DNA of 64,000 nucleotides from contig BPIC01000001.1 of NCBI GenBank assembly GCA_026003895.1, positions 624,128 through 688,127 of the forward strand. Direction: 5' to 3'. Position 1 is the first letter of the stretch. Every line of letters begins with the position of its first letter. Of this stretch, positions 2,827 through 49,790 are shown piece after piece. Both the position numbers and the translations under genes were made by a program. The DNA is from Dehalococcoidia bacterium. Its GTDB lineage: Bacteria > Chloroflexota > Dehalococcoidia > SpSt-223. The notes under the pieces were generated by a model. The model saw nothing but the letters and a program-made list of their open reading frames with translations. It ran no database searches and was not told where the DNA came from.

Positions 2827-3549
2827 TTATGCGACGATGGCGGCGCGCAGACGGGCGAGCTCGTCGTCCGTCAACCCTGCGCGACGTAGGTAGGCCAGCG
2901 TGTCGCCGAACTCGTCCCTGACAAACGCCAAGGTCGAAAGCATCAATTCAGGCGGGCAGATCAGCAGCTGCTGGTACTCCTCCCACGGAATCCCCGCTGC
3001 TGCGGCGCGCTGCCGAGCCTCGTCCCAATACCCATCCGATTGCGCTGCACTCGTCAGTGCGTAGTCCTCAGCAATCAGCTCATCGGGCACACCCGCCAGC
3101 GACAACACCAGCGCGATCACAATCCCGGTGCGGTCCTTGCCGGCCGTGCAATGGACGACGGCCGGCAGCGAATCGGCGAGCCGTCGCAGGATCAGGGCCA
3201 GCCGATCCTGTCGCTCGATGAGCATGTGCCGATACACCTCCTCGAGCGAGCGCGGTCCTGTGGCCGGCGCGTCGTCGAAGATTGGGAGGGCGACCGTTAT
3301 CAGCCCGTCGGCGTCGAATGCGTACGGGGCAGTTGCCATCTCGCTCGGACGTCGGAGATCGATGAACGCGCGGACGCCCTTCTCGATCAGGAATCGGCGA
3401 CCGTCGACGGTCAGGCGATGAGGACTGTCGGCGCGATACACAGTCCCCCAGCGCGTGTGCCGCCCATCGCGAGTCGGATAGCCTCCGATGTCACGGAGGT
3501 TCCGGACGCCGTCGAGCTGGAGATGCCGTGAGAACGAAGCCGTCGGCAT
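2827..3549 (-). CDS. Tyrosine-protein phosphatase (PtpB-like)
   Basis: RNLRDIGGYPTRDG...RADSPHRL...FIDLR...VVHCTAGKDRTG catalytic CX5R signature. Confidence 0.9.
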   Translation of the reverse strand: MPTASFSRHLQLDGVRNLRDIGGYPTRDGRHTRWGTVYRADSPHRLTVDGRRFLIEKGVRAFIDLRRPSEMATAPYAFDADGLITVALPIFDDAPATGPRSLEEVYRHMLIERQDRLALILRRLADSLPAVVHCTAGKDRTGIVIALVLSLAGVPDELIAEDYALTSAAQSDGYWDEARQRAAAAGIPWEEYQQLLICPPELMLSTLAFVRDEFGDTLAYLRRAGLTDDELARLRAAIVA

Positions 3550-3718
3550 GGCTACCTGCCGGGGGTGGAATCGCCTCTGAACGGTACGCCGCGCTGCGTA
3601 ACCATGAGATTAGGCGAAGGTGAACAGTCGGTTAGGACCGTAAACGTTCTGCAATGGCTGCCCGCCGGCATTGATTGATTGCGCGCCGCCGGCCTAGGAT
3701 CTGCCCGCAGCGGAGGGA

Positions 3719-4816
<1,098 letters not shown>

Positions 4817-39420: not shown

Positions 39421-40287
39421 ATGCGGTTGCTGCTCGCCTCCCTGCTCGCGCTCCTTGCGGTGATCGCCGGGACTGCCTCGGCGGCCGAGCGGCTGGTGAC
39501 GCCCGTCGCGAACCTGCGCGATGACGCGCTTGCTGACCGGCTCGCTCGCCTTGTCGCTGCCGAGCCGGCGATCTACGGCATCGCCGTCAAGCACCTCGTC
39601 ACCGGCCAACATGCCGCTGTCAACGGCGACCGTGTCTTCGAGGCTGCGAGCCTCTATAAGTTGGCGGTGATGGTCGAGCTGTACGCGCAGCACGCGCTCG
39701 GGGAGATCGACTTCGACGAAGCAGTGCCGGCGTTCGTCATCCTTGGTTACGACAGCAGTGGTTTTCCGATCTATGGCGAGCCAACCACCTATAGCGCCCG
39801 TGAGGCTCTGATCGACATGATCACCGTCAGTGACAACGCGGCGGCGCAGTTTCTCCTCTATCGGCTCGGGCCCAGCCGGGTCAACCAGCGGATGGCAGCG
39901 CTCGGTCTGCCGAACACCACCGTCGACTGGGATACCACGACCACGCCGAACGAAATGCTGGAGCTGCTCGACCTGATGGCGACCGGCCGTCTCGTAAGCC
40001 GCCAAGCGAGCGCCGAGATGATCGATGTCTTGCTCGGTCAGCGGATCAACGATCGTCTCCCGGTCGGGCTACCGCCCGGCGTGCCGATCGCCCACAAGAC
40101 CGGCAACTTGCCCGGCCTCGCGCACGATGCCGGCATCGTCTATGCCCCCGAGGGGCCGTACATCGTCGTCGTTCTCACCGAGGATCTGTGGGATGTCGAG
40201 CGCGGCTATGCGGTCATCCATGACCTCGCCCGGCAGGTGCACACCTACTTCGCTCACCGACCGGCGCTCGTCGCGCTCGCGCCCTGA
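39421..40287 (+). CDS. Exported class A beta-lactamase-like serine hydrolase
   Basis: Signal peptide; FEAASLYKLAVMVELY (SxxK), SDNAAAQFLL (SDN), HKTGNLPG (KTG). Confidence 0.9.
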   Translation: MRLLLASLLALLAVIAGTASAAERLVTPVANLRDDALADRLARLVAAEPAIYGIAVKHLVTGQHAAVNGDRVFEAASLYKLAVMVELYAQHALGEIDFDEAVPAFVILGYDSSGFPIYGEPTTYSAREALIDMITVSDNAAAQFLLYRLGPSRVNQRMAALGLPNTTVDWDTTTTPNEMLELLDLMATGRLVSRQASAEMIDVLLGQRINDRLPVGLPPGVPIAHKTGNLPGLAHDAGIVYAPEGPYIVVVLTEDLWDVERGYAVIHDLARQVHTYFAHRPALVALAP

Positions 40288-40605: not shown

Positions 40606-41508
40606 TCATCCCAACGCGGGGCGTCGTGCGAAGAGCAAGACGCTCTCGCGCACGAGCTTGGCGGCGGCGACAGCGGCGATACCAGCCGGGTCGATGGCTG
40701 GGAGCACCTCGACGATGTCGATGGCAACGACATTGAGGCCGCGCAGCGAGGTCAGGAAGGCGGCGAGCTCGCGGAAGGTGGGGCCGCCAGGCTCGGGGCA
40801 GCCGGTGCCGGGCGCTGCGGACGGATCGAGGACATCGATGTCGAGCGAGAGGTAGAGGGGGACGCCTTCCAGCGCAGTACGCGCGGTCGGCGCGAGCGTC
40901 AGCTCACTCGAAGCGGAGAGCAGCCCGTTGGCCGCGCGCCACTCGGGCGCCGTGCCGGAGCGCCCGCCTACCTGCGCCACGCGGCGCGGGCCGATCTCGT
41001 CGCAGATGCGCCGGAGCACGGTCGCGTGACAGATGCGCTCGCCGGCATACTCCTCGATCAGATCGAGGTGCGCGTCGACGTGGAGGAGGTGCAAGTCCGG
41101 GTAGTGCTCGAGGAGGCCGCGCACCGCCCCAAGCGTCAGCGTATGCTCGCCGCCGAGCAGCACCGGGAGCGCCCCCGCTGCGGCGATGGCGCCGGTCCGC
41201 GCGGCGATTGCTGCGAGCGCGGCGTCCATCGTGAGGCCGTCGAGCGGCAGGTCGCCGAGGTCGGCGATCGCGAGTGTTTCGAGGTCGCGATCGAGCGCTG
41301 GGCTGTAGGTCTCGATGCTATCCGAGATGGCGCGGATCGCCGCTGGCCCGTCCGCCGTGCCAGGCCGGAACGACTCGGTCAGGTCAAGCGGCACGCCGAG
41401 GATCGCGACGTCCGGCCGGTCGAGGCCAGGCCGGCTAGCGAGAAACGGCCGCGGAGACGGGGAGGAGGCCAACGGCGTCGTCCTGCCCAGCGGCGAGACT
41501 GCGGGCAA
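40606..41508 (-). CDS. speB: Agmatinase/arginase-family ureohydrolase
   Basis: VLLGGEHTL, LLHVDAHLDL, LSLDIDVLDPSAAPGTGCPEPGG metal-binding motifs; start uncertain. Confidence 0.9.
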   Translation of the reverse strand: MPAVSPLGRTTPLASSPSPRPFLASRPGLDRPDVAILGVPLDLTESFRPGTADGPAAIRAISDSIETYSPALDRDLETLAIADLGDLPLDGLTMDAALAAIAARTGAIAAAGALPVLLGGEHTLTLGAVRGLLEHYPDLHLLHVDAHLDLIEEYAGERICHATVLRRICDEIGPRRVAQVGGRSGTAPEWRAANGLLSASSELTLAPTARTALEGVPLYLSLDIDVLDPSAAPGTGCPEPGGPTFRELAAFLTSLRGLNVVAIDIVEVLPAIDPAGIAAVAAAKLVRESVLLFARRPALG

Positions 41509-42364
41509 GGTCCGCCGGGAGGACGAACGCCGCTTGGTGCATCGCCGGGGTGTAATAGCGAGTCACGATTCCTTCCAGCCGGCGCTCGATCTCTGCCGGC
41601 GGGACGGCTGCCAAATCCTTTCCCTTCGTTGCCGAAAGGAAGCTCCAAATCACGCCTGGGTACGAAGGGATGCTTGCCAAGTACGGCGCGACGACCGGGA
41701 AGACTCGGCGGAGCTGGCGCGCCGCTTTGCCCAATTCCGCGCCCATCAACAGGGGCGAGCCGCTTTGGGTCACGAACACGCCGTCCTCCGCGAGCGCTCG
41801 GAACGCCGCGCGGTAAAACGCCTCGCTAAAGAGCGCTTCGGCGGGGCCAACCGGGTCGGTGGAATCGACAAGAATGGCGTCGAAACGCTCGTTCGTCTCG
41901 GCGAGATACCGTGCGCCGTCGCCGATGACGAGCTCGACGCGCGGGTCGTCGAACGCGCCGGCCGAGATTTCGGGGAGATACTTCAGGCAGGTGTCGACGA
42001 CTGCCCGGTCGAGCTCCACTTGCACCGCGCGCTCCACCGTTGGATGCTCGAGGACGCGCCGAAGGGCGCCGCCGTCGCCACCCCCGATGACCAGCACCGT
42101 GCGCGGCGCGGCGAGGGCGCACAGCGCGGGGTGGACGAGCATCTCGTGGTAAATGTGCTCGTCCACGCTCGAAGTCTGCACCGCGCCTTCGAGGATGAGG
42201 GTGGTGCCCAGCAGATCGGTCTCGATCACCTGGATCGACTGGTAGGGCGAGCGGCCTTGGTAGATTTCGCGGCGGACGTGATAGCCCTGCCGGAATCCTT
42301 GGATTGGGGCTTCAGCGAACCAGCGCCCCAGCGGGAACACGGGCTCGTGCGTCGACAATTCCAC
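41435..42364 (-). CDS. speE: Polyamine aminopropyltransferase (spermidine synthase family)
   Basis: GAVQTSSVDEHIYHEMLVHPAL, VLVIGGGDGGALRRVLEHPTVERAVQVELD, DAILVDSTDPVGPAEALFSEAFY. Confidence 0.95.
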   Translation of the reverse strand: MELSTHEPVFPLGRWFAEAPIQGFRQGYHVRREIYQGRSPYQSIQVIETDLLGTTLILEGAVQTSSVDEHIYHEMLVHPALCALAAPRTVLVIGGGDGGALRRVLEHPTVERAVQVELDRAVVDTCLKYLPEISAGAFDDPRVELVIGDGARYLAETNERFDAILVDSTDPVGPAEALFSEAFYRAAFRALAEDGVFVTQSGSPLLMGAELGKAARQLRRVFPVVAPYLASIPSYPGVIWSFLSATKGKDLAAVPPAEIERRLEGIVTRYYTPAMHQAAFVLPADLARSLAAGQDDAVGLLPVSAAVSR

Positions 42365-42695
42365 GCTTCATCTCCATGACCTGAACATGCCCCGGCGCGA
42401 AATAGCGCTGGAGGACCGGGGCGACCTCTTCCGGCTGGATCCGTTTGCCACAGGTGAAGACATCCACCGCCGCGTAGCCGAGTTCCGGCCAGGTGTGAAT
42501 CAGAATGTGCGATTCTGAAATGACGGCCACCCCGGTGATCCCTTGTGGGGTGAACGGATGGATGAACATTTCGAGCAGCGTCGCGCCACAGGCTTCCGTC
42601 GCCTCGGTGAGCGCGTGCCGCACCGCCTCGACCGAATCGAGGTTCTCGTTACAGTCCCACATCTCCATGATGAGGTGGCGACCAACACTTTCCAT
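42312..42695 (-). CDS. speH: S-adenosylmethionine decarboxylase proenzyme (pyruvoyl)
   Basis: VISESHILIHTWPELGYAAVDVFTCG (self-cleavage ES-HI context). Confidence 0.95.
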   Translation of the reverse strand: MESVGRHLIMEMWDCNENLDSVEAVRHALTEATEACGATLLEMFIHPFTPQGITGVAVISESHILIHTWPELGYAAVDVFTCGKRIQPEEVAPVLQRYFAPGHVQVMEMKRGIVDARARVPAGALVR

Positions 42696-42707
42696 CGGTA
42701 CCCCCCT

Positions 42708-43170
42708 TTACCAGAGCATGACGGCTGCGACCGTGCAGCCATACCGTTCGACGCGATGCTCGCATGACTCGAGGATCAGCTCGTGCAGGTCGAGGCCGCG
42801 GCGGGCAAACGCCTCCTCGACCTGGGCGCGGACGACCGACTCGGCCTCCGCTGCCGTCATCGCCCCAGCATGCTCGAAGATCACCCCATACTGGTCCTTC
42901 GAGCGCCCGACACCGACGCAGCTCGCGATGACCTGCCCCGGCGTATCGCTTTCGGCGACCGAATAGACCATCGGCGCCAAGGTCCCCTCGACGAGATGGC
43001 TCGGCCGCTCAAACATCCGTTGTGCACCCTTTGGCAGGATGCTGCTCACTCGGATGAGGTTGAGATTTCCCACCCCAGCGTTGAGCAGGGCATTGTCAAA
43101 GGCGTTCAGCTCGGTGCCGCCCTCAGCGGCGCCGGACGTTATCCAGAACCGCTCAGGAACTTGCCACATC
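42708..43170 (-). CDS. pdaD: Pyruvoyl-dependent arginine decarboxylase
   Basis: ERFWITSGAAEGGTELNAFDNALLNAGVGNLNLIRVSSILP; start MWQVPERF at 43170, inside longer ORF 42708..43526. Confidence 0.92.
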
Positions 43171-44235
43171 GGAATCCCTCTTGGTGTGGAGTAGGCTCTC
43201 GGCGCCGACGTAGAGCGTCGCCTCGTCGACGGGGGCCGCCGCCAAGACCGAGTCTTCAAACGTCTCGATCCGGTAGAGCGACGACCGATACCAGTTTGTC
43301 TGTGGCGCTCGCCGCAACGGCGCCAAGTCGTCGCGGACGCTGCCGACGAGGTAGCCCCAGTTTTCGTAGGTGCTGAAGTCGCGGATGATGTCGGTGATGG
43401 CCACTCGGTAATAGCCGGTGAGCCGCGCCTGCAGCGCCCGCCAGTTGCGGAACGATGATTCGATGACAGTGACACCGAAGTAGCCGGCGCAGCCCGCGCC
43501 TGCGAGCGCTTCCAGCCCGCGCGCAATGAACAGCTCGAGGCCGGCGAGCGTGTCGGGTGGATCGGTGAAGAAGGTGTGGAAGGAGCCGGCGAGCGAAGGG
43601 GGCAGCGGATTGCGCAAATCGACGGTCTGCACCTCGAGCGGCAGCCGCTCGGCGGCGGCGACCTGCCGGATGAAGTCGTTTAGGCGCTCGTCGATCTCGA
43701 CAACAACGACGCGGCGCGGCAAGCCGGTGAGCGCCGCGGCCACCCCCATCAGGTCGTCGTCGCCCAGCACGATCAGGTCGCGTCCGGCGAGGTCCCCCCG
43801 GTCGGCGAAGGCCGCGAGACGCGCGAAGACCGTGTCGGTCGTGACGTAGGCTTGGTCGTAGGTTTCGATCGGCTGAGGACGACCGCCTTCGATCGCCTCG
43901 AAGCGGCGGCGCGCTTCGGCAAGCTGCTCGTCGCTGACGCCGCGGCCGGCACAGCCGGTGCAGCGGAGCGAGGGCCGCGGAACCGCATTCCGTTCGGCGG
44001 CGAGCGCTCGTCCTCGTTCCGTGAGCGCGATCGACGTCTCACCGACGTCGGCGAGCCCTTCGGCAGCGAGCACCCGCACCGTTTCGACGACTTGGTTGAA
44101 CGGACACTTGGCGAGGTCCACGGTTTGCCACAGGTCGGCCGAAGCCGGAATGGCCGTGAGGATCCGCTCGATGTCGCGTTCCGTCGTCGGGATGGCGGTT
44201 CGTTCGCTGACCAGGGCAGCTAGCCGGGCATACAA
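43153..44235 (-). CDS. bpsA: N4-bis(aminopropyl)spermidine synthase, branched-chain polyamine synthase BpsA family
   Basis: LRCTGCAGRG, YVTTDTVFARLA, DLIVLGDDDLMGVAAAL, FHTFFTDPPDTLAGLELFIARGLEAL; clustered with polyamine genes. Confidence 0.88.
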   Translation of the reverse strand: MYARLAALVSERTAIPTTERDIERILTAIPASADLWQTVDLAKCPFNQVVETVRVLAAEGLADVGETSIALTERGRALAAERNAVPRPSLRCTGCAGRGVSDEQLAEARRRFEAIEGGRPQPIETYDQAYVTTDTVFARLAAFADRGDLAGRDLIVLGDDDLMGVAAALTGLPRRVVVVEIDERLNDFIRQVAAAERLPLEVQTVDLRNPLPPSLAGSFHTFFTDPPDTLAGLELFIARGLEALAGAGCAGYFGVTVIESSFRNWRALQARLTGYYRVAITDIIRDFSTYENWGYLVGSVRDDLAPLRRAPQTNWYRSSLYRIETFEDSVLAAAPVDEATLYVGAESLLHTKRDSDVASS

Positions 44236-44447
44236 TCGTTCTCCCCCTCAGGAGGCCGGAGCTCCTAACCCCTAACCCGCACCGAGGCACGCGGCTCCTC
44301 ATGAGCACGATCACGAGGCGCCGGGAATGGCCTGTTTGGGTTGGCGCGCCCGCATGGGGCGTTCCCCCGACACGACAAAACCCCCGGCTCACTGGGCGGA
44401 GCTGTTTTAGCAGCCGCGCCCGGCCAACCGAGGGCCTTGGTGTCAGG
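44236..44447 (-). ncRNA. Candidate structured 5' leader/attenuator of the bpsA polyamine operon
   Basis: About 210 nt between a strong promoter and bpsA. Nested complementarities: GACAC/GTGTC; CCCTCGGTT/AGCCGGGGG; GGGCGcgGCTG-CTAAAA-CAGCtcCGCCC, followed by TTTT. Confidence 0.4.
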
Positions 44448-44453
44448 ACCTCC

Positions 44454-44482
44454 ATTATACAGCGGGGCGTATGCCCTCGCAA
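44454..44482 (-). promoter_or_regulatory. Sigma-70-type promoter TTGCGA-N17-TATAAT for the polyamine operon
   Basis: Minus-strand -35 at 44482-44477 and -10 at 44459-44454, spacing exactly 17. Confidence 0.65.
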
Positions 44483-47315: not shown

Positions 47316-49790
47316 ATGAGGGGTCGGCTCCTTGCGGGAGGACTGGCTGCCGGGGCGGTGTTGGCTGCTGCGGTTGGTGTCTGGGCCTTCAGCCTCGGCG
47401 CGGCCAGCGCCCAAAGCGGCTGTGAGCGCCCGCCTGCCGACGGCCCGCGCTTCAGCGCTTGGCTCAAAGCGGGCTGTTATCGCGAGTGGTTCCACGACTC
47501 CGAGATTCGCTCGACCGGCCCAGTCATCGACGGCGTCGACAACTCCACCCACGGCCGCGTCCGCGTCTACTACTCCCCCGAGATGGTGCGTTGGCTCGAA
47601 GCCGGGCGTCCCGGCGGGCGGCCTCCGGCAGGCGCGATCCTCGTGAAGGAGCAATATCCTCCCACCGGCAGCGAACTCCAGGGCTGGACCGCCATGCTCC
47701 GCGATGAGCGCATGTCGTGGGACGGCTGGTTCTGGTTTCAAGAGTTCTTCGGTTATGGCATTCAGGCCGAGTTCGGGTCGAGCGGCTGCCTGCGCTGTCA
47801 TGCCTCGGCGGTCAACGGCACGACCTATGCCTCGCTTGCCAACGCTCGCGGCGAGACGATCACCTATCCGGCGCCCGGTGAGATTCAGTGGTATCCCGGG
47901 CACGTCTCGACCATCCAGGACGACCCGGCTGCCTCGCAGTTGCTTCGGAAGCCGCTCGCCCAGCCCGACCCGGCGTTTCTCGCGCTGTTCCCGGGGCTGC
48001 CCATCACCTCCCAGCCCCTTCCAATCCCCAACCACGAGTTCGATCACGTCTGGCGACGGCCGGACGGCGGTCCTCACTTCGTGACCAGCGACCAGTGCAT
48101 CGGCTGCCACAACGCCTACGATCTCCCCAACATGCAACTCACCGACAGCGCAGGCCGTATCCTGAACCTCGCTCCCTATGGCGAGTGGAGCGCCTCGCTG
48201 ATGGGCCTCTCTGGGCGCGACCCAGTCTTCCATGCCCAGCTCGAAGCCGAAACCACGACCTATCGGCCCGGGGTCTCGGCCTTCACCCAAAACCTCTGCT
48301 ACCGCTGCCACGGCGCGATGGGCGAGCGCCAGATCCACCTCGACGGCAAGGGGCCATTCCAGCATGAGATGGTCTATGCCACCAGCGGTCCGAACGCCAT
48401 CTACGGCGCACTCGCCCGCGACGGCGTGTCGTGCATGGTTTGTCACACGATCGCACCGGAAGGCTTGGGCACACCGTCGACGTTCTCGGGCAATTTCAAT
48501 GTTGGACCGTCGAACGCGGTTGTAGGCCCCTTCGAGAACCCGAAAACCTTCCCGATGGAGCAGGCGCTCGGCATCACGCCGAAGTTTGGGAGCCAGATCT
48601 CGTCGAGTGCTCTCTGCGGCTCCTGCCACACCGTCATCCTGCCGAAAGTGCCGACGGGCTACCAAGGCGACCCCACCACCGACCCGACCATCGAATACGA
48701 AGTCGAGCAGGCGACCTACCTCGAATGGCGCAACAGCGCCTACCAGAATGAAATCGAGCCGATCGAGCCGAAGACCGCCCAGACCTGCCAGGGTTGCCAC
48801 ATGCCGCAGACCTTCGACGGCAAAACACTCCGCTTTAAGATTGCGAACATCGAAGAGCCGGATTACCCCCCGACGGACAACCGCGCCCCGGACGACGAGA
48901 TTCGGCTTTCGCCGCGCGAGCCGTTCTCGCGCCACACCCTCGTTGGCATCAACCTCTTTGTCATGCAGATGTTTCAGCAGTTCCGCGGCCTGCTCGGCAT
49001 CGCGGCGCCGGATACCGCCTCCGACCAGAAGCAGACCGCAACCGACTTCCTCACTGCCAACCAAGCGAGCCTCGAGCTTGCGCGGACGGGGAGTGCCCGG
49101 CTGGAGATCGTTGGGACGCGTCTCACCGACGCCGGCCTCGAGACGACGGTCCGTGTGACCAACCTCGCGGGCCACAAGCTTCCCAGCGGCGTCGGTTTTC
49201 GCCGCGCGTGGCTCGAGTTCACCGTCCTCGATGCCAGCGGGCGCGTCCTCTGGGCGAGTGGCCGGCCCAACGCCCTCGGCGTCATCACTGGTCCGGACGG
49301 CGCTCCTCTTGCCACCGAGTTTGCCACCGACACGTGGCAGCCGCACTACCAGCGCATCACCCAGCAAGACCACGTCCAGATCTACGAAGAGCGGACGCTG
49401 GATGACCAGTTCCGCTTGACCACGAGCTTTCTGGCGCGGTTCTACAACGTGAAGGACAACCGGCTGTTGCCGAAGGGGTGGAAGAACGACACGCCCGGGA
49501 CGGAGTTCATGCAGCCCGAGGAGGTGTTTGGGGACGAGCGCTACTTCGATGGGAGCGGCAGCGACGAGGTGGTGTATGTGGTGCCGCGTGAGGTGGCGGC
49601 GCAAGCGGGGAGCGTGCGGGTGGTGCTGCACTATCAGAGCATCCCGCCCTACTACCTGCGGGACCGCTTCCGGACGGCGGGGCCGGAGACGGGGCGGTTG
49701 GCGTATTTGGCCAGCCATCTCCAGACGGCAGGCACGCCCATCGAAGGCTGGACGCTGCGCCTTGCCGAGGCCGCCATCCCTCTCCGCTAA
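47316..49790 (+). CDS. Exported multihaem cytochrome c (six CXXCH motifs)
   Basis: Signal peptide; CLRCH, CIGCH, CYRCH, CMVCH, CGSCH, CQGCH counted in the translation. Confidence 0.9.
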   Translation: MRGRLLAGGLAAGAVLAAAVGVWAFSLGAASAQSGCERPPADGPRFSAWLKAGCYREWFHDSEIRSTGPVIDGVDNSTHGRVRVYYSPEMVRWLEAGRPGGRPPAGAILVKEQYPPTGSELQGWTAMLRDERMSWDGWFWFQEFFGYGIQAEFGSSGCLRCHASAVNGTTYASLANARGETITYPAPGEIQWYPGHVSTIQDDPAASQLLRKPLAQPDPAFLALFPGLPITSQPLPIPNHEFDHVWRRPDGGPHFVTSDQCIGCHNAYDLPNMQLTDSAGRILNLAPYGEWSASLMGLSGRDPVFHAQLEAETTTYRPGVSAFTQNLCYRCHGAMGERQIHLDGKGPFQHEMVYATSGPNAIYGALARDGVSCMVCHTIAPEGLGTPSTFSGNFNVGPSNAVVGPFENPKTFPMEQALGITPKFGSQISSSALCGSCHTVILPKVPTGYQGDPTTDPTIEYEVEQATYLEWRNSAYQNEIEPIEPKTAQTCQGCHMPQTFDGKTLRFKIANIEEPDYPPTDNRAPDDEIRLSPREPFSRHTLVGINLFVMQMFQQFRGLLGIAAPDTASDQKQTATDFLTANQASLELARTGSARLEIVGTRLTDAGLETTVRVTNLAGHKLPSGVGFRRAWLEFTVLDASGRVLWASGRPNALGVITGPDGAPLATEFATDTWQPHYQRITQQDHVQIYEERTLDDQFRLTTSFLARFYNVKDNRLLPKGWKNDTPGTEFMQPEEVFGDERYFDGSGSDEVVYVVPREVAAQAGSVRVVLHYQSIPPYYLRDRFRTAGPETGRLAYLASHLQTAGTPIEGWTLRLAEAAIPLR

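Follow-up and report, generated by a model that had tools for sequence, protein, structure and literature searches.

A five-gene operon that very likely encodes a complete arginine-to-branched-polyamine pathway in a thermophilic Dehalococcoidia bacterium

A 64,000-nucleotide stretch of DNA from a Dehalococcoidia bacterium (Chloroflexota, SpSt-223; assembly GCA_026003895.1, contig BPIC01000001.1, positions 624,128 to 688,127 of the forward strand), referred to here as the window, was analyzed. It carried a unit of polyamine genes on the minus strand at 44235-40606, in the order bpsA-pdaD-speH-speE-speB. We consider it very likely that with this operon a thermophile covers the whole way from arginine to branched polyamines. 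The operon would be a portable set of five genes in approximately 3.6 kb that makes these compounds without decarboxylases that depend on pyridoxal phosphate (PLP). We found no report in the literature of a branched-polyamine pathway in this bacterial class.

The identities, order, and coordinates of the genes, which had been proposed in an original prediction from the DNA letters, were borne out by family profiles, relatives in the PDB, and the coordinates of the open reading frames (ORFs). The first gene, bpsA (44235-43153), encoded a homologue of N4-bis(aminopropyl)spermidine synthase of 360 aa and had a TTG start with GGGGGAG upstream. It was followed by pdaD (43169-42708, ATG start), encoding a pyruvoyl-dependent arginine decarboxylase of 153 aa, and by speH (class 1b speD; 42695-42312), which was assigned as an S-adenosylmethionine (SAM) decarboxylase of 127 aa by its family profile and PDB match. 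The speE gene (42364-41435, GTG start with GGAG upstream) encoded an aminopropyltransferase of 309 aa, a spermidine and/or N1-aminopropylagmatine synthase. The last gene, speB, encoded an agmatinase-family ureohydrolase for agmatine or N1-aminopropylagmatine, with a TTG start at either 41508 or 41472 and its end at 40606. The overlaps that had been predicted were present, with 17 nt at bpsA/pdaD, 53 nt at speH/speE, and 38-74 nt at speE/speB according to the speB start chosen. Only the pdaD/speH junction, a 12-nt gap, lacked an overlap among the four junctions. One promoter and these overlaps implied that the five genes would be co-transcribed and their translation coupled. A second species of the genus had the same complete five-gene order, with proteins 82-92% identical. 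Since this species and distant genomes kept the order, chance was excluded as its cause.

Each product was matched by its Pfam family, with E-values of 1.2e-78 (BpsA_C), 9e-41 (PvlArgDC), 2.7e-39 (AdoMet_dc), 1.3e-61 (Spermine_synth), and 6.6e-72 (Arginase). NCBIfam equivalogs exceeded their cut-offs for PdaD, SpeH, SpeE, and SpeB (agmatinase). No NCBIfam match was obtained for BpsA, and its family-profile support came from Pfam. BpsA had BpsA_C and the N-terminal domain over its full length, and its residues 8-329 aligned to the solved BpsA of Thermococcus kodakarensis (Tk-BpsA, PDB 5xnc, E 1.7e-83). The GDDD motif at 158-161 and the spermidine-site residues D225, E259, Y290, and Y316 were kept, and D160, D161, and D225 were invariant across 83 homologues. 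All catalytic-core residues named for Tk-BpsA (PMC12979288) were retained. In addition, bpsA was under strong purifying selection, with 90% protein identity and 64% identity at fourfold sites between two species of the genus.

The two decarboxylases were predicted to be self-cleaving pyruvoyl enzymes, as had been claimed, because their cleavage sites aligned to those of solved proteins. PdaD exceeded the cut-off of TIGR00286 and matched PDB 1n2m (E 5e-30). Its predicted cleavage site was S42-S43, with D25 and E99 as the partner residues, and D25, S42, S43, and E99 were invariant in 9 homologues. SpeH scored 136.6 bits against TIGR03330 (cut-off 75.7) and matched PDB 1tlu (E 2.5e-29). Its predicted cleavage site E61-S62, together with the catalytic residues H67 and C82, matched the SAM decarboxylase (AdoMetDC) of T. 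maritima. SpeE scored 335.8 bits against NF002010 (cut-off 260), matched PDB 1iy9 (E 2e-65), and carried the Spermine_synth and tetramerisation domains. SpeB scored 213 bits against TIGR01230 (cut-off 174.3), and the metal ligands of the arginase fold were conserved in GGEH, DAHLD, and DIDVLDP.

We then considered the genome as a whole, a 3.98 Mb assembly that was 80.5% complete. It held one match each for BpsA_C, PvlArgDC, AdoMet_dc, and Arginase, all in this operon. No protein matching OKR_DC_1 was found in the genome by profile search. The sole ornithine/arginine/diaminopimelate decarboxylase was LysA, which scored 446 bits against a cut-off of 298. This was the only candidate for a second, PLP-based route, and no such route was found. 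The single copies and the lack of any PLP arginine or ornithine decarboxylase found in the assembly indicated that the operon was the route of this genome. Provided that the assembly lacks no relevant genes, PdaD must then be the source of agmatine and SpeH that of decarboxylated SAM. As a separate observation, four long open frames of 912-1332 aa with Spermine_synth-like (methyltransferase-fold) matches were seen at ~41-62 kb of contig C6 (L003-L006).

Based on these assignments, the following pathway is proposed. PdaD would cleave itself to form its pyruvoyl cofactor and decarboxylate arginine to agmatine, and SpeH would mature in the same way and supply decarboxylated SAM to both aminopropyltransferases. 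SpeE would then, most likely, aminopropylate agmatine to N1-aminopropylagmatine, from which SpeB would strip urea to give spermidine. Finally, BpsA would place one or two aminopropyl groups on the N4 of spermidine to give N4-aminopropylspermidine and N4-bis(aminopropyl)spermidine. Such branched polyamines compact nucleic acids and protect them against heat. The folded leader of the operon would probably tune its expression. The original prediction of a complete route with BpsA-type branching was supported by the 5xnc alignment and the core residues, but it had left out the N1-aminopropylagmatine step. It had also named N4-bis(aminopropyl)spermidine as the end product. Judged by sequence, the product may equally be the tetraamine, the pentaamine, or both together.

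The middle steps may instead run in another order. In the classical order, SpeB would convert agmatine to putrescine, SpeE would form spermidine from it, and BpsA would branch it, with the same enzymes and end product. The agmatinase equivalog score of SpeB was in line with this order, as were the PDB chains closest to SpeE (1iy9 and 3o4f), which are named spermidine synthases. However, agmatine is aminopropylated first in T. kodakarensis and T. thermophilus, the organisms with characterised BpsA (PMC12979288), and it was accepted by 17 of the 18 bacterial spermidine synthases tested (PMC11107197). Because of these two lines of evidence we favour the agmatine-first order, and the classical order is a possible but less probable alternative. 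In the case of SpeH, the question was whether it might be a neofunctionalised SpeD, an arginine or ornithine decarboxylase like SpeD2 of Anaerolinea, and not an AdoMetDC. Such homologues are known in Chloroflexota (PMC10407285). However, SpeH was the only AdoMet_dc protein of the genome and lay beside two users of decarboxylated SAM, a separate PdaD was already present, and the canonical SESH/HTWPE/C residues agreed with T. maritima AdoMetDC. This reading was rejected on the residues and the sole-AdoMet_dc status, and we consider it highly improbable.

The remaining alternative concerned BpsA, which might have lost branching or might use another acceptor, so that the cell would make mainly linear polyamines or only N4-aminopropylspermidine. 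In Tk-BpsA the C-terminal tail is said to bear an aminopropyl group, and the tail sets the product range of the T. kodakarensis and T. thermophilus enzymes (PMC12979288). The tail of the window BpsA was different, with 8 D/E in 36 residues clustered more loosely than in Tk-BpsA. However, the retention of every catalytic-core residue and the purifying selection on bpsA made a loss of branching unlikely. Some points nevertheless weighed against the proposed complete branched route. The less densely acidic tail may change the efficiency of branching and the product. The assembly, at 80.5% completeness, may lack a further decarboxylase or aminopropyltransferase, and a Spermine_synth match was seen elsewhere in an open frame of 525 aa (L002).

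The distribution of the operon was investigated by running the BpsA_C profile over 399 genomes of the phylum and inspecting the gene context in selected loci. The cut-off was exceeded in 10 of the 399 genomes, several of them by distant homologues. The full five-gene order was found in the second species of the genus (G002, L031), another Dehalococcoidia family (L033, G004), an Anaerolineae genome (L044), and an unclassified bacterium (L062). Partial orders were also observed. A further member of the genus (G001, L046) showed the first four genes and then the end of its contig, an Actinobacteria metagenome-assembled genome (MAG; L112) had bpsA-pdaD-speE-speB, and two Thermococci loci (L053, L092) had bpsA-pdaD-speH-speE. 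A single unit for the route had been called unusual. It was uncommon, but the same order occurred in two more Chloroflexota lineages and the unclassified bacterium and, in part, in Thermococci. The unit thus reappears in distantly related, heat-associated bacteria, and its rarity had been overstated: it is rare but not singular. No paper describing it was found in a literature search that left most subscription literature outside.

Other arrangements exchanged or fused parts of the set. In a Dehalococcoidia MAG (L049, G042), pdaD and speB were replaced by a LysA/ornithine decarboxylase-like PLP decarboxylase, which came after bpsA-speH-speE. In Desulfurobacteriaceae the order was speB-speE-bpsA. 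In Thermoflexus and relatives, BpsA and SpeH were fused in one ORF of 507-508 aa at eight of the loci used for the BpsA tree (L034, L099, L102-L104, L106, L118, and L119; 6025-7548 in L034). This fusion was the only AdoMetDC in G256 and G321, which ties BpsA to the supply of decarboxylated SAM. Such recurring modules, in which a PLP decarboxylase stands in for pdaD and speB or a single polypeptide joins BpsA and SpeH, show how the route is put together and perhaps transferred. A tree of the BpsA proteins placed the window in one group with L031, L044, and L049, with 98% SH-aLRT support. Overall, the five-gene clusters did not form one clade, and a single origin was not resolved on the long branches of this tree. 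Diverged BpsA-like proteins with 27-37% identity were also seen in other Chloroflexota, beside the only speH of the respective genome (L036 5529-7043, L037 ~3112-4462, and L038 6035-7182), with GDDD seen in L036 and L038. They possibly represent another aminopropyltransferase branch.

Upstream of bpsA we identified a sigma-70-like promoter and a conserved leader. The promoter, TTGCGA-17-TATAAT (44454-44482, minus strand), matched the consensus at 10 of 12 positions and ended at 44454, and both hexamers were identical in the second species. The leader of ~215 nt (44236-44453, minus strand) was 84% identical to its counterpart in this species (L031 8644-8859; 189 of 225 aligned bases, ungapped). 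For the same species pair, identity at fourfold sites was 53-66% in bpsA, pdaD, speH, and speE, and the flanks were unalignable, with values of 0.30 upstream of the promoter and 0.23 downstream of speB. The gene upstream of the operon was also different in G002. The conservation of the leader was seen in two genomes only. In G001, the leader and the start of bpsA fell outside the 2016-bp contig. Folding was stronger than in shuffled sequences (z = -3.95 and -2.93 in the two species). The fold comprised three hairpins. The first was long and conserved, the second had a variable loop, and the inner stem of the third differed in sequence yet still paired in both species. The pairing of this third hairpin despite changes on both sides was apparent only when the separate folds were compared. 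The RNAalifold consensus of the two sequences showed no compensatory pair or double change, so covariation was not demonstrated.

Several explanations of the leader were examined and rejected. A known riboswitch was rejected because no Rfam model, including those of the SAM class, matched at the gathering score or at a relaxed E-value. A leader peptide was considered since both species shared a same-frame ORF of 20 codons, but its differences (7/4/4) were not biased to the third position, unlike those of the real genes here. A dispersed repeat was rejected because a search with a model of the leader (R1, 44453-44262) gave one copy in each genome. Weak R1 matches occurred elsewhere, the best in G421 (E 0.0025) with no polyamine gene among the nearby ORFs inspected; these were probably G+C-rich chance matches. 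From its conservation and fold, the leader reads as a selected regulatory RNA, a candidate cis-regulatory element. It might be a new class of RNA that senses a polyamine or a precursor and switches the whole operon, which we suggest only tentatively and hold to be rather unlikely. The enzymes of the operon were all of known kinds, and the leader is the part of the locus that could be new. With it, the control of branched-polyamine synthesis, a subject on which the literature consulted has little to say, becomes directly testable.

The 16S rRNA was consistent with the thermophily that had been suggested. High G+C content of rRNA is a mark of thermophiles, and the 16S G+C of this genome was 62% (0.623-0.625), with 0.647 in G001. 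Two relatives of the class had 0.523-0.535, Thermus parvatiensis had 0.641, and the Thermoflexus-like G256 had 0.648. This supported a thermophile independently of bpsA. The two 16S rRNA genes of the genome (L127 on contig C2 and L131 on contig C7) were only ~94% identical, which would reflect either intragenomic divergence or a mixed assembly. In the window, the operon was flanked by genes transcribed in the opposite direction. An ORF resembling class A beta-lactamases lay at 39421-40287, and a transporter of the MFS/GPH type started at ~44471. An 824-aa ORF with several CxxCH motifs at 47316-49790 (plus strand) resembled a multihaem cytochrome.

The locus was compared with known systems. The spermidine riboswitch, a SAM-I variant (PMC10853860), is also a leader RNA ahead of polyamine synthesis genes, but the window leader, unlike it, matched neither SAM-I nor any other Rfam family. 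The Anaerolineae genome RSWS13 (L044, JAPWUW010000264.1) had the same five-gene order with 52-66% protein identity. However, its leader was shorter with a terminator-like hairpin, was not matched by R1, and had in common with the window leader only the short motif TTTT[AG]TCGTGT after the hairpin. In Thermoflexus, BpsA was likewise coupled to AdoMetDC, but as one polypeptide, and pdaD, speE, and speB were not found in the stretches examined. The Thermus BpsA (T. composti/parvatiensis) was 43% identical to that of the window, and the agmatine-first logic would be common to both. However, two Thermus loci showed no pdaD, speH, speE, or speB out to 7 kb from bpsA, and PvlArgDC had no match in the T. 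composti control genome. The closest parallel in enzymes was T. kodakarensis, in which the route runs through the same families (TK0149 PdaD, TK0147 SpeE, TK0882 SpeB-like, and TK1691 BpsA; PMC12979288), with an archaeal-type pyruvoyl PdaD and a BpsA of identical catalytic residues. Its locus numbers placed bpsA and the speB-like gene far from pdaD and speE, whereas the window held the genes in one overlapping bacterial unit. These comparisons suggested that the pathway in the window is the known Thermococcus/Thermus route, probably via N1-aminopropylagmatine.

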